From Acuticoccus sp. I52.16.1 (GTDB lineage: Bacteria > Pseudomonadota > Alphaproteobacteria > Rhizobiales > Amorphaceae): a DNA stretch of 64,000 nucleotides. Shown in pieces: positions 26,736 to 58,608 of the stretch. Below the pieces are notes generated by a model. That model was not told the origin of the DNA. It did not search any database and saw only the letters and a program-made list of their open reading frames with translations. Every line of letters starts with the position of its first letter. Within the stretch, counting starts at the first letter, position 1. A program made the position numbers and the translations under genes. Location of the stretch: positions 1-64,000 of the forward strand of contig NZ_CP094829.1 of the NCBI RefSeq assembly GCF_022865125.1, in the 5' to 3' direction.

Positions 26736-26770
26736 GAAGAGCGGGAAAACGGCAACACAGGAGGGAACGC

Positions 26771-27298: not shown

Positions 27299-27300
27299 AC

Positions 27301-29844: not shown

Positions 29845-29853
29845 TGTGCGGCA

Positions 29854-29876: not shown

Positions 29877-29896
29877 CTTTCTTGAGGACGCGTCCC

Positions 29897-39386: not shown

Positions 39387-39424
39387 GACGACATCTCCAG
39401 TTCATCTCTCGCCGGGAAGTGGGG

Positions 39425-39446
39425 CTTCCCACCGTGGGAAGGTCAA
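39425..39446 (-). promoter_or_regulatory. CueR-type promoter element for copZ
   Basis: On the minus strand TTGACC (39441-39446) overlaps the dyad CTTCCC-N5-GGGAAG (39425-39441). The -10 position, 19 bases further on, reads CACTTC. The layout matches the copA site at 39482 almost base for base. Confidence 0.75.
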
Positions 39447-39481
39447 GATGACGGCGGCATACATTCTTTCGAGGACCGCGC

Positions 39482-39512
39482 TTGACCTTCCCATCATGGG
39501 AAGCCCCATCTC
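39482..39512 (+). promoter_or_regulatory. CueR-type promoter of copA
   Basis: TTGACC (39482-39487), a 19-base spacer and CATCTC (39507-39512), with a perfect dyad CTTCCC-ATCAT-GGGAAG at 39487-39503. This is the hallmark of Cu(I)-activated MerR-family promoters. The regulator is probably CueR at 45255. Confidence 0.8.
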
Positions 39513-39538
39513 GCGTTGACGTGCCAAGGGAGGTTCTC

Positions 39539-42073
39539 ATGGATGCATCGGTCGGCCGGCTTCAGCGAACGGGAATGGCGGCGTCGAGTATCGAATTCGG
39601 CGTTGAGGGGATGACCTGCGCGTCCTGCGTCGGCCGCGTGGAAAGAGCTTTGAGGGCGATCCCCGGTGCTACGGATACTAGCGTGAACCTCGCCACCGAG
39701 CGAGCCCGAGTGACCTTTACGGGACCTGCCGACGCCGCTGTGGTGCGCGAGGCGATCGAGGGCGCCGGATACGACGTCGCCGAGGCGACGACCGAGCTCG
39801 CCGTCGACGGTATGACATGCGCGTCCTGCGTCGGCCGGGTGGAGCGCGCGCTCGCCGCCGTCCCGGGAGTTAAGTCTGTCAACGTCAACCTCGCGACTGA
39901 GCGGGCGACCGTGCGTCACGCGGACGGGGTGGTGACGACGGCCGCGCTTGTCGAAGCGGTGGAAGACGTCGGGTACCAAGCGAAGCTCGCGAGCGCGGCC
40001 GATGCAGGCGACGAGGCGGACGCAAAGAAAGCAGGCGAGCTCAAGGCGCTTCAGCGCGACGTCGCCATCGCCGCGATGCTGACGCTGCCGGTGTTCGTGC
40101 TGGAGATGGGCGCGCACCTCGTCCCCGCGTTCCACCACGCCATCGACGTCGCGATCGGGCGCGAGACGAGCTGGCTCATTCAGTTCGCGCTGACGACGCT
40201 GGTGCTATTCGGTCCGGGTCTGCGCTTCTTCCGAAAGGGTATTCCGGCGCTCCTGCATGGCGGGCCGGACATGAACTCGCTGGTCGCTTTGGGCTCGGGC
40301 GCGGCCTGGGCCTATTCGGTGGTGGCGACCTTCGCAGCTGGTAGCCTGCCCGCGGAAACGCAGAATGTATATTACGAGGCCGCGGCCGTGATCGTCACTC
40401 TGATCCTCCTCGGCCGCTTCATGGAGGCCCGCGCAAAGGGGCAGACCGGCGAGGCGATCAAGCGCCTGATGGGTCTGAGGGCGAAGACCGCGCGCGTCGT
40501 GCGCGGCGACGAGACCGTGGACGTGCTGATCGAGGAGGTCACGGCCGGCGACGTGATCGCGGTGCGCCCGGGAGACAAGATCCCCGTCGACGGCGTGGTG
40601 CTCGACGGATCGAGCTTCGTGGATCAGTCCATGATCACGGGCGAGCCGGTTCCCGTGTCGCGCGGCGAGGGGGACGAGGTTGTCGGCGGCACCCTCAACA
40701 AGACCGGCGCGTTCACCTTCCGCGCCACCAAGGTCGGCGCCGACACCGTGCTGTCGCAGATCATCCGCATGGTGGAGACGGCGCAGGGTGCGAAGCTTCC
40801 GATCCAGGCGCTGGTCGACCGCGTGACGTTCGTCTTCGTACCGGTCGTGATGGCGGTCGCGGCCGTCACGTTCCTCGTCTGGCTGACGTTCGGGCCGGAT
40901 CCTGCGCTCACCTTCGCCCTCGTCAACGGCGTTGCGGTGCTCATCATTGCGTGCCCATGCGCGATGGGGCTCGCGACACCCACCTCTATCATGGTCGGTA
41001 CCGGTCGTGGGGCGGAGTTGGGCGTCCTTATGCGCAAGGGAGAGGCGCTCCAGTCGCTGCGGGACGTCACCATCGTGGCGCTCGACAAGACTGGCACACT
41101 CACAAAGGGGCGTCCGGAGCTCACCGACTTCTCCGTGGCGGAAGGCTTCACCGAGGATGAGGTGCTGGCGCTCGTCGCGGCCGTTGAGGCGAAGTCCGAG
41201 CACCCGATTGCTGAAGCTATCGTACAGGCGGCACGGGCGCGCGGACTCTCAGCGGGGGAGGTTGCCAGGTTTGACGCCGTCCCGGGCTTCGGCGTCGGCG
41301 CGAACGTCGCGGGCCGGCGCATCGACGTCGGTGCGGACCGCTACATGACGCGGTTGGGTCTCGAGCCGGCCGCCTTCGCTGATGAGAGCGCGAGGCTGGG
41401 CGGGGAGGGTAAGTCGCCGCTCTACGCCGCCGTCGATGGTCGCCTCGCCGCGGTCATCGCTGTGGCCGACCCGGTGAAGCCGACGACGGCCGCCGCGCTC
41501 GCCGCGTTGCATGATCTCGGCCTGTCGGTCGCGATGATCACCGGTGACAACCGCCGCACGGCCGAGGCCATCGCCGCGCGGCTAGGCATCGACGAGGTCA
41601 TCGCCGAGGTGTTGCCGGATGGCAAGGTAGACGCGGTAAAGACACTGGGCGCGCGCGGCCGGGTGGCGTTTGTCGGCGACGGGATCAACGACGCGCCGGC
41701 GCTCGCCGAGGCGGACGTGGGCCTTGCCATCGGCACGGGCACCGACGTCGCCATTGAAGCGGCGGACGTGGTGCTGATGTCCGGCGATCTCAACGGCGTG
41801 CCGAACGCCATCGCGCTGTCGCGGGCGACGATGCGCAACATCCGCCAGAACCTCTTCTGGGCGTTCGCGTACAATACCGCGCTGATTCCGGTGGCGGCGG
41901 GGGCTCTCTATCCGGCGTTTGGGTTGCTGCTTTCGCCCATCCTCGCGGCGGGAGCGATGGCGTTGTCGAGCATCTTTGTGCTCACGAATGCCCTGCGACT
42001 GAAAGGCTTCCGGCCACCCATGGCCCGTGACGGTCGTGTGGTGGCTGCGGTCGCCGCCTCTCCCGCGGAGTGA
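39539..42073 (+). CDS. copA: Cu(I)-exporting P-type ATPase CopA
   Basis: The 844-residue P1B-ATPase has two N-terminal heavy-metal domains, each with [15 protein letters not shown], the transmembrane CPC motif ([13 protein letters not shown]), phosphorylation site DKTGTLT, HP motif (SEHPIAEAI), TGDN and [10 protein letters not shown]. It pumps Cu(I) out of the cytoplasm. The ATG at 39539 has an ideal AAGGGAGG site 5 bases before it and lies downstream of the CueR promoter. Upstream in-frame alternatives would lie inside the promoter. Confidence 0.96.
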
Positions 42074-44311: not shown

Positions 44312-44336
44312 AACCCCCTTCCGGGGTTGAGGTTTG
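44312..44336 (+). promoter_or_regulatory. MerR-type promoter before the DUF305 gene
   Basis: AACCCC-CTTCC-GGGGTT (44312-44328) is a perfect 6-5-6 dyad with the same geometry as the copZ and copA sites but a different sequence. A weak -35 (CTTTAA) and a -10-like GTTTGA (44331-44336) lie 19 bases apart. The start site would be downstream of the TTG at 44334, which supports the GTG start at 44370. Confidence 0.6.
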
Positions 44337-44369
44337 ATCAGCCTACATGTGATCTCAACGGAGAAGCCT

Positions 44370-45233
44370 GTGTCTTATTTGCGTTTCGCTGCGATGATCC
44401 TGACGTCGACAGCCGTCATGTTCGTCCTCATGTATCTGAACACGTATCTCTTCAGTCACGTCTTCTTCTCGGAGACGCGGACGTACATGGCGATCATGAT
44501 GGGCGCGGTCATGACGCTGATCATGCTGGCCTTCATGCTGGCAATGTACAAGAACACCCGCCTCAATTTTGCGATCTTCGCCGGCGCGGTAGTCGTTTTC
44601 GGTGTGTCGCTCTGGCTCGTACGCAGTCAGGTCACGGTCGGCGACACATCCTACATGCGCGCGATGATCCCGCATCACTCGATCGCCATCATGACTTCGA
44701 GCCGAGCGGATATCTCCGACCCGCGCGTGCGCAAGCTCGCCGACGAGATCATCTACGCGCAGGACAAGGAGATCGCCGAGATGCGCTTCCTCATCGACGA
44801 CATCGACCGGAACGGTGACGGCACCGGGACGGCTGCGCCGTCCGCGTCGGCAATGACGCTCGACGAGGCGCTCGCCACGGCGGACCTTCCCTCGCTCGAC
44901 CCGCAGTTTATGACGGACGATGAGATCGCGCTGGGTCTTTCGGGCGGAACGACATGCCGGTTCACCTATACCGAAGGAAGCCGTCCAGTGCTGGCGCTTG
45001 CCAGCGACGGCGCAGCGCTAATGAAGATCAGCGGGGACCTCGTGCAACTGCAGGCCGACCCGGCCTCACTTGCCAGAGGCCCGACGGCTGCCGCAGCGGG
45101 TGTGTCGATGGCTGTCAACGGACCGACCGGCGATCTCCTCGCGGGTGATGGCGAGCGTGACGCTGTGCTGACGATGAGCCTCGATCGCGGGATGACCGTT
45201 GGCTACAGCGGCTTCTACGACTGCCGCACCTAA
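44370..45233 (+). CDS. DUF305 membrane protein with an extra C-terminal domain
   Basis: Starting at GTG 44370 (GGAG six bases before it) the protein has 287 residues. It has three hydrophobic segments, then a DUF305-type segment with SYMRAMIPHHSIAIMTSSRA and ISDPRVRKLADEII (paired His of the ferritin-like fold), followed by about 130 residues of unknown type with two Cys (TTCRFTY and the final DCRT). DUF305 proteins often lie with copper genes. The extra domain may be periplasmic. An earlier TTG in frame is ruled out by the promoter. Confidence 0.8.
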   Translation: MSYLRFAAMILTSTAVMFVLMYLNTYLFSHVFFSETRTYMAIMMGAVMTLIMLAFMLAMYKNTRLNFAIFAGAVVVFGVSLWLVRSQVTVGDTSYMRAMIPHHSIAIMTSSRADISDPRVRKLADEIIYAQDKEIAEMRFLIDDIDRNGDGTGTAAPSASAMTLDEALATADLPSLDPQFMTDDEIALGLSGGTTCRFTYTEGSRPVLALASDGAALMKISGDLVQLQADPASLARGPTAAAAGVSMAVNGPTGDLLAGDGERDAVLTMSLDRGMTVGYSGFYDCRT

Positions 45234-45254: not shown

Positions 45255-45731
45255 ATGAACATCGGGCAGGCTGCGAAGGAGTCTGGTGTCAACGCCAAGA
45301 TGATCCGATACTATGAAAGTATTGGCCTCATAGGCGCGGTCGAACGATCTGCTGCGGGGTACCGAAGCTACGCACCAGCCGATATCCAGACCCTTCGCTT
45401 CGTCAGGCGGGCGCGTGATCTCGGCTTTTCGATCAATCAGATTGCGGAGCTGTTGAAACTCTGGGGGGACGGGTCGAGAGCGAGCGCGGACGTGAAGTCC
45501 GTTGCGCTGGCCCACATCGCAGAGCTGGAAGGCAAGATCGCGGACATGCAGGCGATGGTCTCGTCGCTGCGAAACCTCGCCTCCCACTGCTCCGGCGACG
45601 AACGCCCGGAGTGTCCGATCATCGACGACCTTGCTGAAGCAGGGGGCGGAGCGGGCCGGCCGAATTCCCAACGCCGTGCATCGGCGTCGAAAGGCGGCCC
45701 CGCAACGAGACCCGCTACTACGAGCGCGTGA
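45255..45731 (+). CDS. cueR: Cu(I)-responsive MerR-family regulator CueR
   Basis: The 158-residue regulator has the DNA-binding start MNIGQAAKESGVNAKMIRYY and the ESIGLI wing, a long dimerisation helix, and the Cu(I)-binding loop HCSGDERPECPI, two Cys seven residues apart as in CueR. A basic tail extends beyond the usual end. It is the probable activator of the CueR-type sites at 39425, 39482, 44312 and 46230. Confidence 0.92.
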   Translation: MNIGQAAKESGVNAKMIRYYESIGLIGAVERSAAGYRSYAPADIQTLRFVRRARDLGFSINQIAELLKLWGDGSRASADVKSVALAHIAELEGKIADMQAMVSSLRNLASHCSGDERPECPIIDDLAEAGGGAGRPNSQRRASASKGGPATRPATTSA

Positions 45732-45738
45732 GTAGATC

Positions 45739-46176
45739 GTGGCTATGGCTTTGGCGATACTCTTGTCCGTCGTGCTGTTTGCCGTCTCGACGAGCATCCA
45801 CTACGCAACCTTGTGTTCAATTTCGGGTGTACTCTCCAGGATGCCCCCGCGCCCGCACCTCGGACTGACAATCGCCATGATGGCGATCGCGTTGGCGCAT
45901 GTCGTGGAGGCGACCCTCTACGCTGTCGGGTTCTGGTTAGGTGATACGGCGCTCGGCTTAGGATCCTTCAAGTCGGAAAGCGAGCTGGACTGGATGGACC
46001 ACTTCTACTTCTCGCTGGTCAACTTCACGACTCTCGGTCGTGGTGACCTGACGCCGACCGGACATCTCCGCTTCATGGCGGGCATCGAAGCCCTGCAGGG
46101 CTTCTTGTTGATCACCGCGTCAGGCTCGTTTCTATTCCAGGTAATGCGAGGCTCTGTTCCCCTCTCCCGCCGTTGA
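45739..46176 (+). CDS. Ion-channel-like membrane protein with an altered pore loop
   Basis: The 145-residue protein has three hydrophobic segments and, between the second and third, a re-entrant pore-loop-like stretch DHFYFSLVNFTTLGRGD. Two-helix potassium channels have TVGYGD at this position; here TTLGRGD replaces it, so K+ selectivity is doubtful. The gene starts with GTG at 45739 (or ATG at 45745), 7 bases after cueR, and may be co-transcribed with it. Confidence 0.6.
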   Translation: MAMALAILLSVVLFAVSTSIHYATLCSISGVLSRMPPRPHLGLTIAMMAIALAHVVEATLYAVGFWLGDTALGLGSFKSESELDWMDHFYFSLVNFTTLGRGDLTPTGHLRFMAGIEALQGFLLITASGSFLFQVMRGSVPLSRR

Positions 46177-46229: not shown

Positions 46230-46260
46230 TTGACCTTACCATGCTGGAAGGTTGTAGCTG
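46230..46260 (+). promoter_or_regulatory. CueR-type promoter before DUF2933 and the complex-I-like operon
   Basis: TTGACC (46230-46235), 19 bases, TAGCTG (46255-46260), with the dyad ACCTT-N10-AAGGT (46233-46252). This resembles classic CueR promoters closely. The DUF2933 gene starts 25 bases later, and the complex-I-like genes follow without an obvious terminator. Confidence 0.75.
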
Positions 46261-46284: not shown

Positions 46285-46593
46285 ATGAGCCCTATGCGCG
46301 GCGCGCCATCGTCTAATAAAATTAATATTGACCCAGAACCTGGGTATCAAAGGACTTCGAAGTCCGCAGGTAATATCGGGATGTGGGCGTGCTGCGTTGC
46401 GATGCTCGTGCCCATCGGCATATACTTCGCCTCCGGCGGAAGCCTGACCAGTGTGACCTCTGCGATTGGTCTGCTTGCTCCGCTGGCCCTTTGCGGTGGC
46501 ATGCACTTCGTCATGCATCGCTGGCTTGGCCGCTCCTGCCACGGCGCCGCGCAGGGCGTTCCGACCGCCGAGCCTTCCCGGCGACGAGCTTAA
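46285..46593 (+). CDS. DUF2933 family membrane protein
   Basis: The 102-residue protein has two hydrophobic segments. The block NIGMWACCVAMLVPIGIYFA and the end CGGMHFVMHRWLGRSCHG are the DUF2933 signature (paired Cys in the first helix, Met/His at the second). The family is common in metal-resistance clusters; function is unknown. It lies just after a CueR-type promoter and 79 bases before nuoA. Confidence 0.8.
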   Translation: MSPMRGAPSSNKINIDPEPGYQRTSKSAGNIGMWACCVAMLVPIGIYFASGGSLTSVTSAIGLLAPLALCGGMHFVMHRWLGRSCHGAAQGVPTAEPSRRRA

Positions 46594-46672: not shown

Positions 46673-47017
46673 TTGGAAGCGCTCCTCACCGCCCTCGTTC
46701 TGACCGGCATCTTCGTCGCGCTCGTCCTGGCGGCGTACCGGGCGGCCGGCCCGCGATGTTCGCCCTGGCCGCAGCGGCTTCCCTTCCTTGGCGGCGGTGA
46801 AGCCGACACGCACGCCTGGCAGCGCTACCATGTGCGCTTCTACACGATGACGCTCGTCTTCATCGCCTTCGAGATGGAGATGATGTTCATGTACCCGTGG
46901 GCGGTCGTGTTCGTCGAAGAGGGCCTGAAGGCGCTCGCCGAGATGGGGATGTTCCTGGCCATTCTCTCCCTCGGCATCCTCTATGGTTGGCGCGAAGGGA
47001 TCTTCCGGTGGCAGTAG
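46673..47017 (+). CDS. nuoA: Complex-I-like subunit NuoA
   Basis: The 114-residue protein has three transmembrane segments in the NuoA pattern, including HVRFYTMTLVFIAFEMEMMF and MYPWAVVF (the acidic FEMEMMF helix). The YECG loop of ordinary NuoA/ND3, with its conserved Cys, is missing; the region reads PFLGGGEADTH instead. The start is TTG at 46673. It is the first of eight tightly packed genes; the next gene starts 10 bases before its stop. Confidence 0.8.
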   Translation: MEALLTALVLTGIFVALVLAAYRAAGPRCSPWPQRLPFLGGGEADTHAWQRYHVRFYTMTLVFIAFEMEMMFMYPWAVVFVEEGLKALAEMGMFLAILSLGILYGWREGIFRWQ

Positions 47018-47994
47018 GAGGCACCCCGGTCTTCGTCGCCGCGGGTGGCGGTGTCCTCGGCGCAGTCGAGGCACTGCGGCTGGAGCCAGCGCTGACGCTG
47101 GTCGCGACCCCACGGGCTGCGCAGGTGCTCGTTGTGGCGGGCGAGCAGCGACCAAGCGACCGTATCGCCCTCGCGCGGATCCACGCCCAGCTTTTTGAGC
47201 CCCGCGCGACCGTGTGGTGGCGCGCCGACCGGCCGTCAGGATTCGACTTCGGCACCGGCGCGCCGGAGAGTGTGTCCGACGCTGCGGCCTTCATCAGTGC
47301 GCAGGCGACGCAGTCCGAGGGTGAGGCGATCCTGCTCGACGATGGGCCACCCAACCCGTGGGAGGGCGTCGGACCTTACGGTCAGGGCGGCAATGGCATG
47401 ATGGGCGGGACACCCTACGGCCGACCGATGGCGATGACGACCGACGACCTGCGAGATGGTTTGGCGCTCGACGCATACAGCGCGACATTCGGCCCGTATC
47501 TGACACAATGGCCGCCCGGTCTCATCATGGAGACGACGCTCCAGGGCGATGTGATCCAGTCCGTCCGCATCGTCGAAGCGCCGCTCGCGCAGGACCTTCT
47601 CGCGGCGACGCCTCATTTGGAGCTCGCACGCCTCCTGCGGCTCCTCGAGCTTCCTGCGCTCGCCGATCGGCTCGTGCGGGCGGCGCTTGCCGATCCCGCG
47701 CGCGCCGCAGCCGGGCTGGCCCGCGCGGTCCGGTGGACAGGCCTTCTCGCCGCGATCCCGTCCGCGCTCGCCCGCGACGAGAGCGGCGGCGACGTGCGCA
47801 GTCGGACGGCGGGCCGGCTCGACGCGCTGAGCGCCGGCCGACCCGCCGACCCGGCCGCACCCGGCGATCTCGCCGCGATGCTCATCGGCCTCGAATGGCA
47901 CGAGGCGGCGCTGGTCCTGGCGAGCTTTTCCATCGACGAACTGCGCGGAGCGATCGCGTCGCCGGCCGTCCGAATGGCGAAGGGCGCCGCATGA
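47008..47994 (+). CDS. Cysteine-free NuoB-like plus NuoD-like fusion protein
   Basis: The 328-residue protein starts at GTG 47008. Residues about 20-75 resemble NuoB (TPRAAQVLVVAGEQRP, then RIHAQLFEPRATVWW), but not one cysteine occurs in the protein, so the N2 [4Fe-4S] cluster cannot be present. The middle (NPWEGVGPYGQGGNGMMGG and LTQWPPGLIMETTLQGDVIQ) recalls NuoD or hydrogenase-large-subunit ends. The C-terminal 130 residues are Ala/Arg/Leu-rich. In complex I, B and D form the quinone site next to NuoH; this protein seems to be a redox-dead cap for the arm. It overlaps nuoA and nuoH. Confidence 0.6.
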   Translation: MAVGGTPVFVAAGGGVLGAVEALRLEPALTLVATPRAAQVLVVAGEQRPSDRIALARIHAQLFEPRATVWWRADRPSGFDFGTGAPESVSDAAAFISAQATQSEGEAILLDDGPPNPWEGVGPYGQGGNGMMGGTPYGRPMAMTTDDLRDGLALDAYSATFGPYLTQWPPGLIMETTLQGDVIQSVRIVEAPLAQDLLAATPHLELARLLRLLELPALADRLVRAALADPARAAAGLARAVRWTGLLAAIPSALARDESGGDVRSRTAGRLDALSAGRPADPAAPGDLAAMLIGLEWHEAALVLASFSIDELRGAIASPAVRMAKGAA

Positions 47995-48902
47995 GCCTCG
48001 CAGCATTCCCGTTCCTAGTGTTCTTCCTGGCGCTGGGCGCCGTGCTCGTGGTCGTCCTCGACGCCGTCGCGCGGGCGGCGCTCGCAGGCGCGCCGGCGGG
48101 GCCATACCTCGCTGGCACCTTCCGCCATGCCGCGATGCGTCTCTCCGGTCAGTTGGTGACAACCGAGGCGCCCGACCGTGCCAACTGGCGCCTCGCCCCG
48201 GCGTGGTACGGGGCGCTCGCGGCGGCGGGTCTCGCCGTCGTCCCGTTCGGCGAGGGCATGGCCCTCATCCAGCTACCCACGAGCATCGTTCTCTGGGGCG
48301 CGGTCGAGGCGCTGGTGGTGGTCGTCGTCTTCCTCCACGGGTGGTCGCCGAACGCGCCGTTCCCGCTGATCGGCGCCTACCGCTACGTCGCCACCGGCCT
48401 GCCGGTCATGCTGCCGTCGATGTTCGTTCTCATCGGCGCCGCCCTTCCGGCCCGCTCGCTCGACGTACTCGCCATCGTCGAAAGTCAGCGTGAGATGTGG
48501 AATGTCGTACGCCAGCCGCTGGGGCTGCCGCTCTTCCTCATCGTCGGCCTGTCGCTCACCTTGCGCGGGCCGATGGACTACGCCGATTCCGCCGACCTTG
48601 CCGGCGGTAGCAGCGCCGAGGACTCCGGCCCCGCGCGGGCCATGTGGCAGGCGGCGCGGCTCGCGATGCTGGTCGCATTCTCGGCGATGGCGGCGACCGT
48701 CTTCCTCGGCGGCTACCTCGGCCCGCTGCTGCCTGGACCGCTTTGGCTCGCGCTCAAGACTGCGCTCGTCCTCGTGCTGATGGTGGCGGCAACGCACCTC
48801 CTACCAAGAATGCCGGTATCGCGGATGGTGACATTCTTGTGGGTGGTCCTCCTGCCGGTCTCCTTCCTCCACCTCCTTGCCGCGGGGCTCGTCGCGCTAT
48901 GA
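47991..48902 (+). CDS. nuoH: Complex-I-like subunit NuoH, diverged
   Basis: The 303-residue protein has about eight transmembrane segments, in the NuoH position of the operon. WNVVRQPLGLPLFLIVGLSL corresponds to the NuoH stretch before the quinone loop. That loop, normally with several Glu (EAESELVAG-type), reads DYADSADLAGGSSAED, so the acidic quinone-site and E-channel residues are largely replaced. It overlaps the upstream and downstream genes by 4 bases each. Confidence 0.75.
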   Translation: MSLAAFPFLVFFLALGAVLVVVLDAVARAALAGAPAGPYLAGTFRHAAMRLSGQLVTTEAPDRANWRLAPAWYGALAAAGLAVVPFGEGMALIQLPTSIVLWGAVEALVVVVVFLHGWSPNAPFPLIGAYRYVATGLPVMLPSMFVLIGAALPARSLDVLAIVESQREMWNVVRQPLGLPLFLIVGLSLTLRGPMDYADSADLAGGSSAEDSGPARAMWQAARLAMLVAFSAMAATVFLGGYLGPLLPGPLWLALKTALVLVLMVAATHLLPRMPVSRMVTFLWVVLLPVSFLHLLAAGLVAL

Positions 48903-49609
48903 TCGATGCGCTGTTCACCGGTCTCTCCGCTCTGGCGCTCTACGCCGGTTGGCGCGTCTTCCGCGTCGATTCCATGGTGCGGGCTAGCTTCTGGCTGATG
49001 ATCTCGTTCATCGCCGTCGGCGGGATCGGGCTCCTCCTGTCGGCGCCATACATCGGCGTCGCGACGGTATTCATGATGGCCGTGGAGATGACCGTCATGG
49101 TGCTCTTCATGGTCATGTTCATGATGAACCCGGCCGGCCTCAACCCGATGATGATGGTCCATCAGCACCGCTTCTCCATCGGCGCCGGGGTCGTCGCTTT
49201 CGCCGGAATGACGGCTGCGACGCTCCTCACCGACCTCCCATCGAACCCTGTCGCGGCGGGCAAGGCGATTGTCCACGACCTGGGGATCGAGCTTCTGGGG
49301 GACTCGATGCTGATCTTCGAGACCGCCGGCGTCACGTTGCTCGCGACGATGATGGCCGCCGTCATCCTCTCCGCGCGCACGGGTCGCTTCGGCGACGCCG
49401 TCGAGGGCTCGGTCCCGCCGGGCCTCGAGCCGGGAGGGACGCCCGCGGGCCGCGTGCCGGAGAAGAGCGGCGGCCACCACCACGGCCACGGCGGACACGA
49501 CCACGGCTCCCACGGCGACGGTAGGAGCGATCACGCACACCATCACGAAGGGCATGACCACGACAGCGGCGGGCACGATCATGCCGGCGACAAGGAGAAG
49601 CACGCATGA
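48899..49609 (+). CDS. nuoJ: Complex-I-like subunit NuoJ with a histidine-rich tail
   Basis: The 236-residue protein has five hydrophobic segments in its first 160 residues (VEMTVMVLFMVMFMMNPAG corresponds to the NuoJ helix 3 region). Residues 193-235 then carry 16 His among Asp, Gly and Ser (HHHGHGGHDH, HHHEGHDHDSGGHDH). Such tails bind Zn, Ni or Cu in ZIP and CDF transporters; I do not know one on ordinary NuoJ. The gene overlaps nuoH and nuoK by 4 bases. Confidence 0.8.
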   Translation: MIDALFTGLSALALYAGWRVFRVDSMVRASFWLMISFIAVGGIGLLLSAPYIGVATVFMMAVEMTVMVLFMVMFMMNPAGLNPMMMVHQHRFSIGAGVVAFAGMTAATLLTDLPSNPVAAGKAIVHDLGIELLGDSMLIFETAGVTLLATMMAAVILSARTGRFGDAVEGSVPPGLEPGGTPAGRVPEKSGGHHHGHGGHDHGSHGDGRSDHAHHHEGHDHDSGGHDHAGDKEKHA

Positions 49610-49911
49610 CGCTCGCCTCGGTTCTCATCGTTGCCGCGGGGCTCATCGGCATCGGCCTCTACGGCGCACTATCGCAGCAGTCCTTCGTCATGCTGATGAT
49701 GGGGCTCGAGCTGATCATGAACGGGGCGCTTCTGGCGGTGCTCGGCTTCTGGTCGTTCGCGCTCGGCGGGATGCCGGAGGGGCAGCTCCTCGCGATCGTC
49801 ATCATGGCCGTCATGGCGGTGGAGATGGCGGCCGGGTTCGCGCTCGTCGTCGCCGTTTACCGCAACCGGCAGGCGGACGTCACCGAAAGCCTCACGACGC
49901 TGAAACAATGA
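49606..49911 (+). CDS. nuoK: Complex-I-like subunit NuoK
   Basis: The 101-residue protein with three transmembrane helices matches NuoK/MrpC. LMMGLELIMNGALLAVLGFW carries the conserved first-helix Glu and MAVMAVEMAAGFALVVAVYR the second, both needed for proton transfer in complex I. Normal length for the family. It overlaps nuoJ and nuoL by 4 bases. Confidence 0.92.
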   Translation: MTLASVLIVAAGLIGIGLYGALSQQSFVMLMMGLELIMNGALLAVLGFWSFALGGMPEGQLLAIVIMAVMAVEMAAGFALVVAVYRNRQADVTESLTTLKQ

Positions 49912-51812
49912 TCCTCGCCCTCGTCGTCCTCCTGCCGACGCTAGCCGGATTTGCCCTCATTGCCGCCGCGCCGGACCGGCGGGGTGAGCTCGCATTGGCC
50001 GCCGGGTTCATCCTCGGCGCCACGCTGGCGCTCGCCGTGGCGGCGATCCTCACCGGCGATACGCTCCTCATCGCCTGGGGCAGCGGCATCGAGCTCGCCG
50101 GGCGGCTGACGCCGCTTTCGGCGATCATGCTCATCCTCCCGCCGCTCGTCGCGCTCCCCGTCGTGGTACGCGGCGCGCTGACGGAGGAAGGGCCAGGCTT
50201 GCCGCGCATGGTCGGCCTCCTTCTCGTGTTCGTCGGCGGGATGGAGCTCGTCGTCATTGCGGACGATCTCGTCACGCTACTCGTCGGATGGGAGGTGATC
50301 GGCGCGGCCTCGTGGGCGCTGGTCGCCCATCGCTGGCGTGATCCGGACGCCGTGACGTCCGGCATCTGGGCGTTTGTCGTCACGCGCACGGGCGACCTCG
50401 GCCTGTTCCTCGCGCTGATGGCGACTGTCGCCGCCACCGGCTCGACCCGGCTCAATGCTCTCGGTGAGCTGACCGGCATGCCTCTCGTGCTGGTGTCAGC
50501 GGGCCTTCTGGTTTCGGCGGCGGCTAAGGCGGCGCAAGCGCCGTTCTCGCCGTGGCTGTTCCGGGCGATGGATGGACCGACTCCGGTCTCCGCGCTGCTC
50601 CACAGCGCCACGCTGGTCGCCGCCGGCGCCTACCTCGTCCTGCGCGCCGGGCCCATGCTGGGCGACGGGTTCGGGGCAGGCGCGATGGCGGTCGGCGCTA
50701 CCACCGCGGTTGCCGGCGGAATCGTCGCGCTCCTCAACCTGCACGCCAAGCGGCTCCTCGCCGGATCGACCTCGGCGCATCTCGGGCTCATGTTCGTGGC
50801 GGCGGGCGCCGGATATCCGGGTGTCGCGCTCGCCCACCTCGTCACCCACGCAGCAATGAAATCGGCGCTCTTTATCGAGGCCGGCACCGCGCACGAGCTT
50901 CGCGGCACCTACGCGCTGGACCGCCTCGCCATCGGTCGTGCCGTACCGGTCCTCACCTGGATGACGCTCTTGCCCACGCTGGCGCTCGCCGGCATCCCGC
51001 CACTCGGCGCGGCGTGGAGCAAGGAGAAGATCGCTGGCGCCGCGCACGATGCCTCGACGCTCGCTACCATAGCGGTCGTCGTGGCGGGGGCACTTAGCGC
51101 CGCCTACGCGATGCGTTTCTATGTCGCCGTCTTCTCCCCCGGCCCGGACGTCGACCCCGGCCGTATCCCATCTCGTGCGGTACTAATCCTCCCGTCGGCC
51201 TTCCTCGCCGTGGTGACGCTGGCCCTATCGGTGCTGTGGATCCCCGCGGTTCCCAACACCATCGCCGATCGTCTCGGGGTTGCCCTGCCGCCCGGCTCGC
51301 TCGGCCTGTTCGCCGCCTCCATCGCGGCGATCGCGGCCGGGGCCGTCCTCGGCATCGTCATCGCCCGGCGACGCGCGGATCTAGGCAGCAATGACACTGC
51401 AGCGGCGCTCGGCGACTGGCTCGGTCTTCCGTGGCTCTTGGAGAACGCGGTGGCGCGGCCGGCCGTCGCGCTTGCCCGCGTCCTCGCCCGCATCGACGAT
51501 GTCCTCGTCGACCGCGGTGTGCACCTTGGCGCAGCGCTGTCGCGGACGATTGCCCACGTCCTTGCCCGCATCGACGACACTGTCGTCGACCGCGGCGTGC
51601 GCCTCGTCGCTGCGTTGTCACGGTGGCTCGCCAACGCGGGGGACCGCTTTGGCGAGTGGGCTACCGATGGCCTGCCCCGGTTGACCGCCTATCTCGTCGG
51701 CGCAGCCGGCGGCGGCGTGCGGCGCACGCAGACCGGGCTTTCCCACCATTATTTCGCGATCCTCGTGGCGGGCCTCGCCGTCGCGGTCGCCGTCCTCTCC
51801 TACGGAGCGTGA
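49908..51812 (+). CDS. nuoL: Complex-I-like subunit NuoL
   Basis: The 634-residue antiporter-like subunit keeps the helix-5 Glu (LLVGWEVIGAASWALVAHRW) and the Lys of SAAAKAAQAPFSPWLFRAMD, plus GPTPVSALLHSATLVAAGAY. The C-terminal part, where ordinary NuoL has the long lateral helix, contains a tandem 26-residue repeat starting VLARIDD (51480-51635), then a final transmembrane segment. The order NuoK-NuoL-NuoM-NuoN is that of nuo operons. Confidence 0.9.
   Translation: MILALVVLLPTLAGFALIAAAPDRRGELALAAGFILGATLALAVAAILTGDTLLIAWGSGIELAGRLTPLSAIMLILPPLVALPVVVRGALTEEGPGLPRMVGLLLVFVGGMELVVIADDLVTLLVGWEVIGAASWALVAHRWRDPDAVTSGIWAFVVTRTGDLGLFLALMATVAATGSTRLNALGELTGMPLVLVSAGLLVSAAAKAAQAPFSPWLFRAMDGPTPVSALLHSATLVAAGAYLVLRAGPMLGDGFGAGAMAVGATTAVAGGIVALLNLHAKRLLAGSTSAHLGLMFVAAGAGYPGVALAHLVTHAAMKSALFIEAGTAHELRGTYALDRLAIGRAVPVLTWMTLLPTLALAGIPPLGAAWSKEKIAGAAHDASTLATIAVVVAGALSAAYAMRFYVAVFSPGPDVDPGRIPSRAVLILPSAFLAVVTLALSVLWIPAVPNTIADRLGVALPPGSLGLFAASIAAIAAGAVLGIVIARRRADLGSNDTAAALGDWLGLPWLLENAVARPAVALARVLARIDDVLVDRGVHLGAALSRTIAHVLARIDDTVVDRGVRLVAALSRWLANAGDRFGEWATDGLPRLTAYLVGAAGGGVRRTQTGLSHHYFAILVAGLAVAVAVLSYGA
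51480..51635 (+). repeat. Tandem 78-bp repeat in the lateral-helix region of NuoL
   Basis: Two in-frame copies with a period of exactly 78 bp (26 codons): VLARIDDVLVDRGV and VLARIDDTVVDRGV, each followed by AALSR. The codons differ at several third positions, so the duplication is not very recent. It falls in the segment that would form the amphipathic lateral helix. Confidence 0.85.
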
Positions 51813-51816
51813 CCCG

Positions 51817-53322
51817 ATGCTGACCCTTGCGATCCTCGTCCCGTTCGTCGGGGCCTTGGTCCTCGTGACCGCCCCCGGTTTGAGGGCAACGACCGCGCGT
51901 GCGCTCGCCGTCGCCACCGCCGCGGTGCCGCTGGCGCTCCTGTGCTTTGCATGGTCGCGCTTCAGCCTAGGCGGCACCGACTTCCAGCTCGTCGAGGAGA
52001 TGGCATGGGTGCCGGCGCTCGGCGTCGCCTGGCGCGTCGGCGTTGACGGCGTGTCGCTGGCGCTGTCCCTGATGACGGGGGTCCTCTTCGTCGCCACGAT
52101 CGCCTGGCCGATGGAGCAGCGCGAGCGGGAGCGCCAGTACTATGCCTGGTTCCTGTTCCTGGAAGCCGCGTCGCTTGGCCTCTTCCTCACGCTCGACCTT
52201 CTCGTCTTCTACGTGTTCTTCGACCTCTCGCTGGTCGGCATGTTCTTCCTGATCGGCCGCTGGGGGCACGGAGAGCGGCAGGCTGCGGCGCTGAAGTTCT
52301 TCATCTACACCTTCGTCGGCTCACTCGCGATTCTGCTCGCGATCATCGTGCTCGTCCTTCGCACTGATCCGATGACGTTCGATATGCGCGTGCTGATCGC
52401 ACAGCAGCCGCTCGCCGGGGCGGGGCCGGTCGCGACGCTCGTCTTTCTCGGCTTCGTCGTGGGCTTCGCGATCAAGGCGCCGCTGTTTCCGGTCCACACA
52501 TGGCTACCACCGGCGCACGTCAACGCGCCTGGGCCGGCGTCCGCCATCCTCGCCGGCGTTCTCCTCAAGATGGGCACCTACGGCATGGTCCGGATGCCGC
52601 TCCAGATGATGCGCGAAACGTTCGCGGCCTATGCGCTGCCCCTGGCTGTCGTCGCCCTCGCGTCGATCCTTTGGGGCGCGTTCGTGGCGCTCGGCCAGAC
52701 CTCGATCAAGCGGCGCATCGCTTACACGTCGGTCAACCACATGGGCTACGCGGTGCTCGGCATCGCGGCGGCGGGCGCGCTCGTCGCCGGTGAGGAGCAC
52801 GCGCGCCAGCTCGCCCTCACCGGCGCGGTGGTGGAAATGGTGGCGCACGGGCTCATCACCGGCACGCTGTTCCTCCTTGCCGGCAGTATCTGGGCGCGGG
52901 CGGATACTTACGAGATGGACCGCTTCGGCGGTCTCGCCGGCGTCGCGCCGAAGCTGACGGCGGCGACGGTGGTGGCGGCCTTCGCGAGCCTTGGCCTGCC
53001 GGGCCTCGCCGGCTTTGTCGCCGAGGTGCAGATCTTCATCGGCGCCTTCGCGGTGTTCCCGTGGGTTGCGGCCGTCGGCCTCGTCGGCATCCTCATCACC
53101 GCCGCGCTGTTCCTCACGATGCTGCGGCAGGTCTTCTTCGGCGAGCGACCGGTGGAGCGGAACGCCTTTGCGGACGTCGGCCGGGTGGAGGGGGCGGTCC
53201 TCCTCGCCATCCTCGCCCTCGTCGTCGTGATCGGCGTCTATCCCGCTTGGCTCCTCGACCTCGTCAACGCCGCCACGGATAGCGCCGTCGTCGGGACCGC
53301 CACCGTCGCGCCCGGGGGCTGA
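51817..53322 (+). CDS. nuoM: Complex-I-like subunit NuoM
   Basis: The 501-residue antiporter-like subunit has FAIKAPLFPVHTWLPPAHVN with the conserved Lys and LLKMGTYGMVRM with the second Lys, plus VNHMGYAVLGIAA. In helix 5 the usual Glu is Asp (VFYVFFDLSLVGMFF), a conservative change. The start ATG is 4 bases after the nuoL stop. Confidence 0.92.
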   Translation: MLTLAILVPFVGALVLVTAPGLRATTARALAVATAAVPLALLCFAWSRFSLGGTDFQLVEEMAWVPALGVAWRVGVDGVSLALSLMTGVLFVATIAWPMEQRERERQYYAWFLFLEAASLGLFLTLDLLVFYVFFDLSLVGMFFLIGRWGHGERQAAALKFFIYTFVGSLAILLAIIVLVLRTDPMTFDMRVLIAQQPLAGAGPVATLVFLGFVVGFAIKAPLFPVHTWLPPAHVNAPGPASAILAGVLLKMGTYGMVRMPLQMMRETFAAYALPLAVVALASILWGAFVALGQTSIKRRIAYTSVNHMGYAVLGIAAAGALVAGEEHARQLALTGAVVEMVAHGLITGTLFLLAGSIWARADTYEMDRFGGLAGVAPKLTAATVVAAFASLGLPGLAGFVAEVQIFIGAFAVFPWVAAVGLVGILITAALFLTMLRQVFFGERPVERNAFADVGRVEGAVLLAILALVVVIGVYPAWLLDLVNAATDSAVVGTATVAPGG

Positions 53323-53326
53323 GGCG

Positions 53327-54736
53327 ATGCCGATCGGCGACCTTGCACCAGAGATCGCGGTTCTCTTCACCGCGGTTGCAACGCTCCTCTTTGCGATGTT
53401 CGCGCCGCGTCGGCTGCATGTCGTCGGCGTGATCATCGCGCTCTCCGGCCTCACTGTGGCGGGTGTTCTCCTCGCCGACCAGCTCGGTCGCACAGGCACC
53501 ACCTTCTCCGGCACCTTCGCGATCGATGGCGTCGGTGTCTGGGCTCGCTTCCTGATCCTCGTCGCGACAGGCGTGTGCGTGATGATCTCACCGGGCTGGT
53601 TTGCAACGGACCGCCGCCACGGCGAGGTCTACGCGGTGTTTCTTCTGTCGGCGGTTGGGGCGATGGCGCTCGCTGGCGCCGCCGACCTGATGCAGCTCGT
53701 CGTTGCCGTGCTCCTGTCGTCCGTCACCGGCTACACGCTGGCCGCCTACCATCGCGGCTGGGCAATCTCGGTGGAAGCGGGGATGAAGTATTTCCTCATC
53801 GGCGCGCTCGCCAACGCCGTCCTCGTCACCGGCGTCGTATTCGTGACCGGTATGGCCGGGGTTACCGGCTACGAGCCGCTCGCGAACGCCTTTGCCGATG
53901 GGCTCATCGCCTCGCCGCTCCTTGTTGCCGGTCTTGCGATGGTCGCCGTCGGGATCGCCTACAAGCTTGGTGCTGCACCGGCGCATACTTGGGTACCAGA
54001 CGTCGCGGAAGGCGCGCCAGTTCCATCGGCGGCGTTCCTCACGGTGGTCCCGAAGATCGGCGCCGCGGTAGCATTCGCGCGGTTGGTCACCGCTGTTCCT
54101 CCAGATGCTCTCGCGTTGCGTCCCCTCGTCGCGACAATAGCGGCTGTGACGATGACGATTGGCAACCTAGCTGCGCTCCGGCAGCAAGATGTGCGGCGGC
54201 TGCTCGGCTGGTCGTCCGTCAGCCAGGCTGGGTACGTGCTGATGGCGGTTGTCGTCATCGACCTCGATACCGGTGCGCCGACAGCACTTGTCGCGATGCT
54301 CGGAGCGTATACCGTCGGCAACATCGCCGCGTTCGCCGTCGTCGCGGACCTTCGCGGTCGAACGGCGCTTTCGGACTATAGCGGCCTCGCGGCGCGCCGG
54401 CCGCTTGACGCCGTGGTGTTGGCGCTTGCGTTTCTTTCCCTCGTTGGCATCCCGCCCACAGTCGGCTTCTTCGGAAAGTTCACAGTGTTCGAGGTTACAA
54501 TCGCGGGCGGTTACGGTTGGCTCGCCCTCGTGGCGGCGACAAATACGGTTGTGTCGCTCATCTACTACGCCCGCGTGCTGTCGCGGATGGTCTTCGATGC
54601 ATCAACCAATGGCGCCGTAGCCCAACTCGACAAAATGACTTGGGCGGCGGCGGTCGCAACGGGATCGGCCATTATAGCACTTGGGCTCACCGCCGGGCTC
54701 CTGCTGGATCAGCTCGCCGACATCAGCCTCCTGTAA
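53327..54736 (+). CDS. nuoN: Complex-I-like subunit NuoN
   Basis: The 469-residue antiporter-like subunit has ISVEAGMKYFLIGALANAVL, YKLGAAPAHTWVPDVAEGAP with the conserved Lys and PSAAFLTVVPKIGA. The helix-5 Glu expected before this (LGLEL-type) appears as VAVLLSSVTGY, so the residue is lost. It is the last gene of the complex-I-like operon; spacing from nuoM is 4 bases. Confidence 0.9.
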   Translation: MPIGDLAPEIAVLFTAVATLLFAMFAPRRLHVVGVIIALSGLTVAGVLLADQLGRTGTTFSGTFAIDGVGVWARFLILVATGVCVMISPGWFATDRRHGEVYAVFLLSAVGAMALAGAADLMQLVVAVLLSSVTGYTLAAYHRGWAISVEAGMKYFLIGALANAVLVTGVVFVTGMAGVTGYEPLANAFADGLIASPLLVAGLAMVAVGIAYKLGAAPAHTWVPDVAEGAPVPSAAFLTVVPKIGAAVAFARLVTAVPPDALALRPLVATIAAVTMTIGNLAALRQQDVRRLLGWSSVSQAGYVLMAVVVIDLDTGAPTALVAMLGAYTVGNIAAFAVVADLRGRTALSDYSGLAARRPLDAVVLALAFLSLVGIPPTVGFFGKFTVFEVTIAGGYGWLALVAATNTVVSLIYYARVLSRMVFDASTNGAVAQLDKMTWAAAVATGSAIIALGLTAGLLLDQLADISLL

Positions 54737-55769: not shown

Positions 55770-57220
55770 CCCGCTGGTCCCGTGCAGCGAGTGCTGTGAC
55801 TCTCGCCGGGTTCCTTAGTGGCTGCGTTTCCGCGGCGGAGTTTCCCATCGATCGGGGATTTGCCGCCGTCAGCGCCGGCGCCGAGCCGGTCACGAAGTCC
55901 CGAAGTGTTTGGGCTACGAATGCGGTCCAGCAGGCACAGAACGAAGCCGAGGTGCACTCACTCGTGACAGACCGCACCATCGACGCCGATACGGCGGTGC
56001 GCGTCGCTCTTTTGAACAACCAGGATCTGCAGGCGGCTTATGCGGACCTTGGCCTCTCGGTAGCCGCGCTCTGGCAGGAGAGCTTGCCGGTCAATCCCCG
56101 TTTGTCGCTTGGGGTCAATACCACTACCGACATTCTGACCCAGGCCGTCGAAGGCGCCGTGATCGCCAATGTCCTGTCCTACGCCACACGCGGACGTCGT
56201 GTGGCCATCGCGGAAACACGCGTTCGCCAGGCGCAGCAACGCGCCATCGAAGCCACTTTGCGGCTCGCTCATGAGACCCGACGTGCTTACTACGAAGCGG
56301 CAGCGGCGTGGGGAGTTGTCATCGAGCTGAACCGTGCGCTTGTCGCGGCGGACGCCGCCGCAGAATTGGCGGCCGAGCTCGGTAAAACCGGCGCTTTCTC
56401 CAAAGTCGAGCAAGCACGTCAGCAGGCCTTCTACGCGGAACTCACCTCTGAGAAGGCCCGTGCAGTGATGGCAGCCCGACTTGCCAAGGAGGAGCTGACG
56501 CGTCGCCTTGGGCTTTGGGGTGCCCGGCTTTCCTACGAGGTTCCAAATGGCCTGCCGCCTCTGCCCCGTTCAGTCCCCGATCAATCCGCCATTGAACGGT
56601 TGGCGCTTCAAAACCGCGCCGACCTCAAGATCGCGAAGCTGGAGCTTGAAGCGCTGGCCCGCAGTTATGGCCTTACGAAAGCGACCCGGTTCGTCACCGA
56701 CCTTGAGGTCGCCGCAGGGCTGGAGCTCGAGCGCGAAGAAGAGGTGGACGAAGGTGATACCACGGTTACGAATCGTCTGACGCCCCGGCTCGAAGCGGAT
56801 TTCGCTATTCCAATCTTCGACACGGGAGAAGCACGCCTCAGAACGGCGGAGCTCAAAATCATGCGGGCGACAAACCTCCTTGCCGCCCGCGCCGTGGCCG
56901 TGCGCTCGGAGGCTCGAGCTGCACATACCGCGTACCGGGGTACCTACGACATCGCCAAGCACTACCGTGACGCTGTCGTTCCGCTGCGCAAGACCGTCGA
57001 GGACGAGGCCGTCCTGACCTACAACGGCATGATCACCAATACATTCGATCTGCTGGCCGATACCCGTGCGCGCATCGAGTCTGTGAGGGCTTCGCTCGAG
57101 GCACGGCGGGACTTCTTCCTCGCGGAGGTCGATGTCGCGGCGGCGATCTGGGGTGGTGGTGTTGCCGGTTCTGAACCCGCCGAAACCGAGGTTGCAGAAG
57201 CCGAAGGAGACGAAGAATGA
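55766..57220 (+). CDS. TolC-family outer-membrane protein, CusC-like
   Basis: The 484-residue protein has a lipoprotein-like signal (AVTLAGFLSGC) and the TolC fold of two repeated helical hairpins: ALLNNQDLQAAYADLGLS, then RRAYYEAAAAWGVV, and in the second half IERLALQNRADLKIAKLELE and DFAIPIFDTGEARLRTAELK. It probably forms the outer-membrane duct for copper export, but no RND pump or membrane-fusion protein is within the window. It overlaps the next gene by 4 bases. Confidence 0.85.
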   Translation: MTRWSRAASAVTLAGFLSGCVSAAEFPIDRGFAAVSAGAEPVTKSRSVWATNAVQQAQNEAEVHSLVTDRTIDADTAVRVALLNNQDLQAAYADLGLSVAALWQESLPVNPRLSLGVNTTTDILTQAVEGAVIANVLSYATRGRRVAIAETRVRQAQQRAIEATLRLAHETRRAYYEAAAAWGVVIELNRALVAADAAAELAAELGKTGAFSKVEQARQQAFYAELTSEKARAVMAARLAKEELTRRLGLWGARLSYEVPNGLPPLPRSVPDQSAIERLALQNRADLKIAKLELEALARSYGLTKATRFVTDLEVAAGLELEREEEVDEGDTTVTNRLTPRLEADFAIPIFDTGEARLRTAELKIMRATNLLAARAVAVRSEARAAHTAYRGTYDIAKHYRDAVVPLRKTVEDEAVLTYNGMITNTFDLLADTRARIESVRASLEARRDFFLAEVDVAAAIWGGGVAGSEPAETEVAEAEGDEE

Positions 57221-58608
57221 CCGATCGTTCGAGTGCCACCGGCATGTCAAGGCGCCAGATCCTGGGTGCAGGTGCTGCAGCCGGAGCTCTGGTATCCACC
57301 GCAGCATGGTCGCGCACGACCAACATGAGCTTGCCTGATGCGCCGCTGATGGAAAGTTCGGCCACGCAGACCCCGGTGAGACCGACTGCAGGACTGCCAT
57401 ACAATCCCGTCTGTACGCTGAACGGCTGGTCGCTTCCGTTCCGCATGAACGGCAACGTCAAGGAATTCCATCTCGTCGCCGAGCCGGTCGAGCGCGAGCT
57501 CTCCGACGGCACGATCGCGCATCTCTGGGGCTACAACGGCCAGTCGCCAGGACCGACTATCGAAGCGGTTGAAGGCGAGAGAGTCCGAATTTTCGTTACC
57601 AACCGGCTCCCGGAACACACGAGTGTCCACTGGCACGGCCTTATCCTGCCGTGTGGCATGGATGGTGTCACGGGATTGACCCAGCCCGGCATCCCGGCCG
57701 GCAAGACCTTCGTCTACGAGTTCGAACTGACGAAGTCAGGCACGCACATGTACCATCCGCACGGCGACGAGATGGTGCAGATGGCGATGGGCATGATGGG
57801 CTTCTTCGTCATCCATCCGAAAGACCCGGATTTCATGCGCGTCGACCGGGACTATGTGTTCCTGCTGTCGGCCTATGACATCGATCCGGGCAGTTACATG
57901 CCCCGCGTCATGGAGATGACCGACTTCAACCTGTGGGCCATCAACAGTCGCGTCTTTCCAGGCGTCGATCCGCTTGTGGCCGCGAAGGGGGACCGTGTCA
58001 GGGTCCGTGTGGGCAACCTGACGATGACCAACCATCCGATCCACATGCACGGATACCATTTCGAGGTGACGGGCACTGATGGCGGTTGGGTGCGGCCCGA
58101 GGCGCGCTGGCCGGAAGTGACGATCGACATCCCCGTGGGGGCGATGCGCGCCTATGAATTCGATGCGATCCACGAAGGCGACTGGGCACTGCACTGTCAC
58201 AAGTCGCATCACACGATGAACGCGATGGGCCACGACGTCCCGACCTTCATCGGCGCTGACAAGACGAACGTCGCCAGAAAGATCCGCCTTATCCAGCCCG
58301 AATATATGCCGATGGGCACCAACGGCATGGCCGATATGGCCGAAATGGCGATGCCGATCCCGGACAACACCGAACCCATGATGGGGGGATGGGGCCCCTT
58401 TGGCTCGGTGGAGATGGGCGGCATGTTCACAGTGATGAAGGTTCGCGAAGGGCTCGCCGCGGACGACTATTCGGACCCCGGCTGGTTCGATCATCCCCCG
58501 GGTACCGTCGCTTACGAGTGGACGGGTTCACTGCCCGAGGTGGCCTCCATGGACGAGGCCGCCACGGTTCCGCCGCAACACGCCGAGCCCGTTCGGCGGG
58601 TTGACTGA
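57217..58608 (+). CDS. Copper oxidase (multicopper oxidase family)
   Basis: The 463-residue exported protein has a Tat signal (MSRRQILGAGAAAGALVS). Copper-ligand motifs: VHWHGLILPCGMDG, MYHPHGDEMVQMAMGMMG, HPIHMHGYHFEV and the C-terminal ALHCHKSHHTMNAM. The Met-rich tail (MPMGTNGMADMAEMAMPI) may bind Cu(I). It is only distantly related to the oxidase at 32733. It follows the TolC-family gene with an ATGA overlap and precedes two copper-binding proteins. Confidence 0.9.
   Translation: MTDRSSATGMSRRQILGAGAAAGALVSTAAWSRTTNMSLPDAPLMESSATQTPVRPTAGLPYNPVCTLNGWSLPFRMNGNVKEFHLVAEPVERELSDGTIAHLWGYNGQSPGPTIEAVEGERVRIFVTNRLPEHTSVHWHGLILPCGMDGVTGLTQPGIPAGKTFVYEFELTKSGTHMYHPHGDEMVQMAMGMMGFFVIHPKDPDFMRVDRDYVFLLSAYDIDPGSYMPRVMEMTDFNLWAINSRVFPGVDPLVAAKGDRVRVRVGNLTMTNHPIHMHGYHFEVTGTDGGWVRPEARWPEVTIDIPVGAMRAYEFDAIHEGDWALHCHKSHHTMNAMGHDVPTFIGADKTNVARKIRLIQPEYMPMGTNGMADMAEMAMPIPDNTEPMMGGWGPFGSVEMGGMFTVMKVREGLAADDYSDPGWFDHPPGTVAYEWTGSLPEVASMDEAATVPPQHAEPVRRVD

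Follow-up and report, generated by a model that had tools for sequence, protein, structure and literature searches.

What can the membrane arm of complex I do once the arm that feeds it electrons is gone? The question is raised by a stretch of 64,000 nucleotides (the window), the first 64 kb of the 123,782-base contig NZ_CP094829.1 of Acuticoccus sp. I52.16.1, in which eight genes on a single strand (46673-54736), each overlapping its neighbor or separated from it by 4 bases, encode a NuoA homolog, a NuoB-NuoD fusion that we call X, and homologs of NuoH, J, K, L, M and N. The electron-carrying parts have been lost, methionines and linkers of metal-binding type have been gained and copper genes lie nearby, and this combination points to what is probably a proton-driven machine for handling copper, and probably one that has gone unrecognized. 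On balance we lean toward the view that the cassette is a redox-dead paralogue of complex I that is driven by the proton motive force and that either transports Cu(I) or is gated by it, with efflux as the most likely role.

The initial annotation had placed eight abutting genes at these coordinates and had described a whole membrane arm kept without an NADH module or an iron-sulfur chain, and both descriptions hold. All seven membrane-arm subunits score above their Pfam cut-offs: a NuoA-like protein (46673..47017, + strand, as are all eight; PF00507, Oxidored_q4, 2.1e-22) with an FEMEMMFMYPW motif; a NuoH-like protein (47991..48902; PF00146, NADHdh, 1.4e-39); a NuoJ-like protein (48899..49609; PF00499, Oxidored_q3, 1.5e-15) with a methionine-rich third transmembrane helix, a NPAGLNPMMMVHQ loop and a histidine-rich C-terminal tail; a NuoK-like protein (49606..49911; PF00420, Oxidored_q2, 4e-16); and three proton-channel subunits resembling NuoL (49908..51812; PF00361, Proton_antipo_M, 2.4e-45), NuoM (51817..53322; PF00361, 5e-63; TIGR01972, 473.6 bits, cut-off 263.8) and NuoN (53327..54736; PF00361, 1e-54). 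NCBIfam cut-offs are reached, among the matches listed, by M (TIGR01972) and K (NF004320, 58.5 versus 57) alone. The best matches of the cassette A and K proteins in the PDB are cyanobacterial chains, and the AlphaFold2 model of the NuoJ-like protein (predicted local distance difference test, pLDDT, 72; predicted template modelling score, pTM, 0.48), in which residues 50-76 form the third helix, retrieves NuoJ chains in Foldseek with a probability of 1.00. When the host's own subunits were used in tblastn, no C, E, F, G or I was found in the window, and the stretches around the other cassettes described below gave no match to the NADH module (E, F, G), C or I except for G-type matches at two loci (L004 and L052), the first of which is annotated there as formate dehydrogenase. 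A control tblastn at canonical nuo loci recovered all fourteen subunits at 22 of 36 loci and part of them at the rest, within 20-kb stretches.

The second gene (47008..47994, 328 amino acids) encodes X, which had been labeled a NuoB/D-like fusion, correctly as judged by profile alignments and PDB matches. The window protein by itself has no Pfam match and only a weak NCBIfam match to NuoB (E-value 0.076). A profile of the X family (70 proteins; 12 of 82 X proteins were omitted from the alignment and two further, rows 12 and 70, from the profile comparison) aligns in hhalign with 47 columns of NuoB (94%, E 1.4e-7) and 193 columns of NuoD (96%, E 1.3e-8), and the best 60 of 94 hmmsearch matches in the PDB are 20-kDa or 49-kDa chains of complex I or their counterparts from formate hydrogenlyase or membrane-bound hydrogenase, with formate hydrogenlyase subunit 5 and MbhJ among the matches. 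Many X proteins match PF00346 above the cut-off and one matches PF01058 weakly. The AlphaFold2 model of the window X (pLDDT 88, pTM 0.85) falls below 50 in most of the methionine linker (residues 128-152), and Foldseek places NuoB-type chains at the top (probability 1.00, E 2e-3 or weaker), with no chain at E 0.001 or better. The linker, GMMGGTPYGRPMAM in the window, is of a different metal-binding type in each of three deep clades, compared here with the X of two loci omitted (L160, whose guessed frame has stops, and L162, interrupted by an insertion sequence). In clade 1 it is a Gly/Met motif, GMMGGxPYGRPMAM; in clade 2 it consists of CPMHP...CPKCGM domains, recognized as HMBD by Pfam in the three that were scanned and by motif counts in all 5; and in clade 3 it is a His-rich or His/Met-rich stretch. 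The linker of the Pseudonocardia X (L007:9923-11041) is a long HGE tripeptide repeat.

The residues on which redox chemistry depends are missing. The window X contains no cysteine, and conserved cysteines for cluster N2 or a [NiFe] site were not found in the family, in which Cys occupies at most 18 of the 70 rows of any column; in one clade-2 X, aligned to 85 NuoB columns, two NuoB cysteine sites are Gly and Ala. The NuoD segment GPQHPAAHG is replaced by a GPFxPxLPPGL consensus in X, and by GPYLTQWPPGL in the window, so that the quinone-site histidine is absent. The cysteine of the NuoA ECG loop is lost in all clades, as are several charged residues that are near-invariant in canonical NuoH, with several of the acids replaced in the window protein. 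As far as its sequences tell, the complex, having neither the cysteines that bind N2 nor the histidine of GPQHP, is redox-dead. Residues of the proton-conducting subunits have been kept, including E129, K207, H232, K281, H314, K318 and K372 in L, K220, K251 and E403 in M, E35 and E73 in K, and K243 and K384 of N in all three clades.

What has been gained is methionine, and it is concentrated in three subunits. The methionine fraction in cassette versus canonical proteins is 8.6 versus 2.8% in A, 9.4 versus 3.9% in J and 9.7 versus 3.8% in K, and it is lower than canonical in H (2.9 versus 4.4%), L (2.2 versus 4.5%), M (3.0 versus 5.1%) and N (3.0 versus 5.1%); the comparison set 69-83 cassette proteins per subunit against 20-21 canonical ones, without L008 (almost a duplicate of the window cassette) and without sequences shorter than 0.85 or longer than 1.35 times the median length. 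A column was scored as a new methionine position when Met made up 80% or more of it in every one of the three clades and no more than 5% in canonical proteins, using 34-39 sequences of clade 1, 5 of clade 2, 8 of clade 3 and 21-22 canonical ones (L008, L003 and L007 were omitted and the rest of clade 1 was thinned to every other sequence; L007 is counted in clade 3). J has eleven such columns common to all three clades (26, 59, 60, 64, 67, 71, 75, 76, 84, 86 and 137), and others lie in K (29, 70 and 74) and A (70 and 73). J has also gained Glu63, its typical motif being MMxxEMxxMxxFMVMFM, and a tail with at least five histidines is present in 60 of the 79 J proteins longer than 185 amino acids. 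The charge distribution, a weak guide, suggests that J is probably oriented N-out and C-in, in which case the NPxGLNPMxMVHQ loop and the tail would face the cytosol, on the same side as X.

Chance is ruled out as the origin of this arrangement because the cassette recurs in many other records. A scan of 84,980 species genomes yielded at least 80 loci, on which the locus counts given below rest, from Alphaproteobacteria, Gammaproteobacteria and Actinomycetota. The set A-X-H-J-K-L-M-N is complete, in order and on one strand in 70 of the 80 listed loci (L008 included), while nine are truncated by contig ends and one (L009) is broken inside L, with a recombinase-like gene behind the break. The exact gene set also occurs on plasmids, both of Proteobacteria and of Actinomycetota: a tblastn search with J against 72,556 plasmids found a match in 30 records, and the window contig itself, which carries RepA-like, ParA and ParB-like genes, is probably a plasmid. 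Copper or heavy-metal genes lie nearby in 15 of the 18 plasmid regions that were opened with their annotation (Vreelandella being counted from marker tblastn alone, and Ornithinimicrobium from a DUF305 gene and an ArsR-type gene alone), and no such gene is present in the stretches opened of the Gordonia, Pseudarthrobacter and Thioclava plasmids. The hosts of the cassette plasmids are marine, soil and actinobacterial, and the cassette genes in the records opened are annotated as 'NADH-quinone oxidoreductase'. The cassette is also found on plasmids of the mycobacteria M. avium (pMAH135) and M. paragordonae (L155 and L166), near metal P-type ATPases. Not all cassettes are intact, as some frames are short and that of Vreelandella (L087) is split in its annotation. 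Those of Martelella (L006) and Pseudarthrobacter (L162) are interrupted by an ISL3 and an IS3 transposase, respectively.

Close to the window the distribution of X is narrow. An X protein 100% identical over 328 amino acids is present in Acuticoccus yangtzensis, and a three-row X profile run against 101 genomes (the host and 100 relatives) scored above 300 bits in four, all of the host's genus. Some match to this profile was found in 92 of the 101, those other than X being mostly a single weak match (~19-29 bits) to the NuoB-like columns, and in the host the weak match lies 1.7 kb from the chromosomal NuoD. Among 385 alphaproteobacterial genomes X was found in at least one, the host, at E 1e-10, a lower bound since up to 4 candidates were scored per genome; the other 19 genomes with matches gave ~41-49 bits in the NuoD columns.

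That the locus has a metal context had also been proposed from the window, and the comparison across loci bears this out for copper. Of 79 cassette flanks, totaling 838 kb, 43 contain a marker of at least one of the twelve groups sought by tblastn with L008 omitted, a density of 10.7 groups per 100 kb. The same hosts provided two comparison sets: 36 chromosomal nuo loci (268 kb), none with a marker, and 24 random windows (478 kb), one with a marker (0.4 per 100 kb). The difference between flanks and random windows is significant (Fisher 4e-6), although a bias toward accessory regions is possible as the random windows were drawn from large contigs. After collapsing, 15 of 25 X clusters have a copper marker. 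In the window, genes upstream of the cassette, all on the + strand, encode a Cu(I)-exporting P-type ATPase (39482..42073; TIGR01511, 596 bits, cut-off 397), a DUF305 protein (44334..45233; PF03713, 3.2e-10), the Cu(I)-responsive regulator CueR (45255..45731; TIGR02044 equivalog, 162.8 bits, cut-off 147.4) and an Ion_trans_2 channel-like protein (45739..46176; PF07885, 1.7e-10). Multicopper oxidases also stand beside the cassette, one of them at 57217..58608 (+; PF07732, 2.5e-41).

A CueR/MerR-type promoter-like site, TTGACCTTACCATGCTGGAAGG (46230..46251, +), which we take to resemble the copA promoter of Escherichia coli, lies ~440 bp before nuoA and is the sole such site in the window; the first gene past it encodes a small DUF2933 protein (46285..46593, +; PF11666, E 2.5e-4, 21.5 bits, cut-off 21). 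The site was seen by eye and counted afterwards, and its choice is thus post hoc, with no match to its pattern in 2,388 kb of control strands and 8 control matches to a looser palindrome. A similar site is positioned 190 bp before nuoA at another locus (L086). Two further CueR-like palindromes, following the CueR operator pattern, lie where the Cu(I) ATPase gene begins (39423-39505), and these are weak since 8 of 100 shuffled sequences contain as many.

Based on these data we put forward a hypothetical mechanism, in which we infer the metal, its transport, its direction and its coupling to protons. The metal is most likely Cu(I). X would collect Cu(I) from the cytosol (Ag(I) would also be possible), and the ion would bind to or pass along the methionine-rich region of J, K and A, which would replace the quinone-linked charge transfer of complex I. 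The proton motive force would drive proton entry via L, M and N, and this entry would be coupled to Cu(I) binding, with Cu(I) most likely expelled from the cytosol. These steps are drawn by analogy with the isolated antiporter modules of complex I, which conduct protons without the redox arm (PMC11496545), and with DAB2, in which a NuoL-like channel subunit is coupled to a soluble enzyme and the proton motive force (PMC13144422). The E-channel of complex I is described as lying between the Q-cavity and NuoN, with the third transmembrane helix of NuoJ rotating (PMC8357420). The evidence points in the direction taken by the initial annotation, that of ion movement driven by something other than NADH oxidation or of a proton gradient used in reverse, and the driver and the moved species are those that we suggest here. 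A more specific form of the proposal is a widespread, eight-subunit, plasmid-borne Cu(I) or Ag(I) pump in which Cu(I) binding in a Met-lined Q/E-channel region would take over from quinone and Fe-S chemistry and metal movement would be directly coupled to the proton flow through L, M and N, and to this we give a little less than an even chance.

It should be noted that several observations weigh against a proton-driven, copper-handling complex. N has lost one canonical membrane glutamate (to Leu or Val) in every clade, so that coupling in this subunit may be impaired. The methionine fraction of A is just 3.5% in clade 2 and 5.1% in clade 3, against a canonical 2.8%. The seven new methionines of the third J helix form no significant one-sided face, and a single-face methionine ladder was rejected by this simple test (p 0.16); five of the seven do form such a face, these having been chosen after the fact. 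The scan patterns included G[QH]GG[EN]GMM, and the conservation of that part of X is therefore partly selection. The CueR-type site was found at just 2 of 83 loci (the window and L086) and was chosen post hoc, no copper marker is present at 26 of the 64 loci whose flanks reach 8 kb or more, and the P-type ATPase, MerR, multicopper oxidase and RND marker families include non-copper members. Genes for ergothioneine biosynthesis (EgtB/EgtD) adjoin the cassette at 18 of 79 loci (for example L004:22015-24287), nine of which are without a copper marker.

Of the other explanations the one that fares best, though we consider it unlikely, is an Mrp-like H+/cation antiporter, gated or induced by copper, that would rebalance pH, K+/Na+ and the membrane potential, with methionines that sense or gate and copper that does not cross. 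L, M and N do resemble the channel subunits of Mrp and NDH, with most Lys and Glu residues kept, a channel-like gene adjoins the window cassette and a potassium-channel-family gene the Pseudarthrobacter one, and like MrpA-G the cassette uses NuoL/M/N-like subunits in a redox-free setting. Yet the membrane methionines of J and K together with the metal-binding-type domains of X seem excessive for a sensor, and the cassette retains the whole arm and the B/D module, whereas Mrp to our knowledge has no homologs of NuoA, NuoH or NuoB/D. The MrpA-G set was not found, Mrp models scoring far below their cut-offs against the cassette proteins.

An importer that supplies copper to periplasmic multicopper oxidases, or the same complex run in reverse, would account for the genes for multicopper oxidases, DsbA/D-type proteins and cytochromes c that adjoin several loci. 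It is an improbable explanation, however, as many of the neighbors are detoxification genes (Cu ATPase, PcoB, CueR and CsoR) and X, like NuoB and NuoD, is expected to reside in the cytosol. Slightly less probable again is a redox machine in which Cu(I)/Cu(II) takes the place of the iron-sulfur clusters and electrons pass between copper and quinone. The copper context and a metal-binding-type linker set between the former N2 and quinone modules are what such a machine might have, but the quinone histidine is missing from the NuoD part and several acids conserved in NuoH are gone, and Met/His sites favor Cu(I) and a high potential, so that quinone reduction would yield little energy. Energy-converting hydrogenases and formate hydrogenlyase, for their part, keep the NuoB-type iron-sulfur cluster and the [NiFe] site; Hyf, Hyc and Mbh share with the cassette the combination of B, D and H with antiporter-like subunits, and the NuoH tree separates their H from both the cassettes and nuo.

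How the cassette relates to ordinary complex I, which the host also has, is addressed by the trees and by the host complement. The host's complex I is chromosomal and in three pieces (A-F, G-H-I and J-N), and a genome-wide family search confined to C, D and PF01512 (NuoF type) found the NuoC and NuoD families once each and PF01512 twice, all on the chromosome. In the NuoH tree 25 cassettes are on one side of a branch (support 99/96) and 21 ordinary nuo on the other, with 4 hydrogenase H outside, and in a concatenated HLMN tree, made by a quick method with a midpoint root and uneven composition, 32 cassettes stand opposite 22 nuo loci with a support of 100. Clades 2 and 3 each form one group in this tree, as does clade 1 save for L086, which branches apart and is counted with clade 1 in the clade tallies. 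The sequence-based trees reject a local decay product and do not place the origin of the cassette. A decayed ordinary complex I is rejected by these trees together with the recurrence of the cassette and the open frames found in the window and in three hosts. Canonical NuoD is present in 37 of 40 hosts examined; in the other three (L046, L049 and L063), whose genomes may be incomplete, PF00346 finds X alone and PF00146 the cassette NuoH alone, and the cassette frames are open and of full length. These three hosts, lacking canonical NuoD and NuoH matches, favor the copper-handling complex that we propose and disfavor a borrowed peripheral arm. They do have PF01512 matches, which are not decisive because formate dehydrogenase and Rnf subunits share this domain. 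A spare membrane arm that docks the chromosomal peripheral arm, or a decayed nuo operon, is thus mostly refuted and very improbable despite the canonical NuoD of those 37 hosts, since X stands in for B and D, three hosts have no canonical NuoD, the trees split the sampled cassettes from nuo, and the frames are open and full length in the window and in those three hosts.

Compared with known systems, the cassette has the A, B, D, H, J, K, L, M and N homologs of complex I (NDH-1) in the same order, with the main ion-path residues of L and M and both K glutamates, and it differs in the absence of C, E, F, G and I, in the fusion and reduction of B and D, in the methionine-rich A, J and K and the metal-binding-type linker of X, and in being often plasmid-borne and linked to copper. 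Like CopA P-type ATPases and CusCBA it is found in a copper context, with CueR/CsoR neighbors and Met-rich and HMBD-type sequence, but the protein families and the energy source are others, and the cassette would be a proton-driven complex of the inner membrane derived from complex I. How events at the quinone site drive the proton channels of complex I up to ~200 Å away is an open question, and a natural version in which the redox module has been swapped for one of metal-binding type while the channels and the K/J linkage were kept separates coupling from redox chemistry. If the complex moves copper, it would represent a new class of plasmid-borne metal transporter, and if the pump is correct it would be the first complex I relative with a metal ion of this kind as coupling substrate, as we know of no earlier one. 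DAB1 and DAB2 likewise combine a soluble module with a NuoL-like channel subunit; theirs is carbonic-anhydrase-like with one channel-type subunit, and none of the eight cassette proteins has a Pfam match to DabA (DUF2309). No description of the cassette was found among the titles and abstract openings that searches of open-access PMC text brought up, and NADH, Nuo, complex I and DUF305 are all absent from the text of one copper paper (PMC8478169).

The remainder of the window includes genes for several metals. Mercuric reductase MerA is encoded at 16790-18304 (-; TIGR02053, 534 bits, cut-off 454), and a region at 23229-31150 contains the large subunit of arsenite oxidase (26608-29844; TIGR02693, 1266 bits) and MoeA, preceded by a histidine kinase and a response regulator of the sigma-54 type. 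The RepA/ParA/ParB-like genes are bracketed by two DDE_3 transposase genes ~7 kb apart (4984-6105 and 13382-14503), which are equally long and oppositely oriented, and an IS66 transposase gene is located at 62169-63674. Among the other loci, a gene for S-adenosylhomocysteine hydrolase recurs in 6 of 83.

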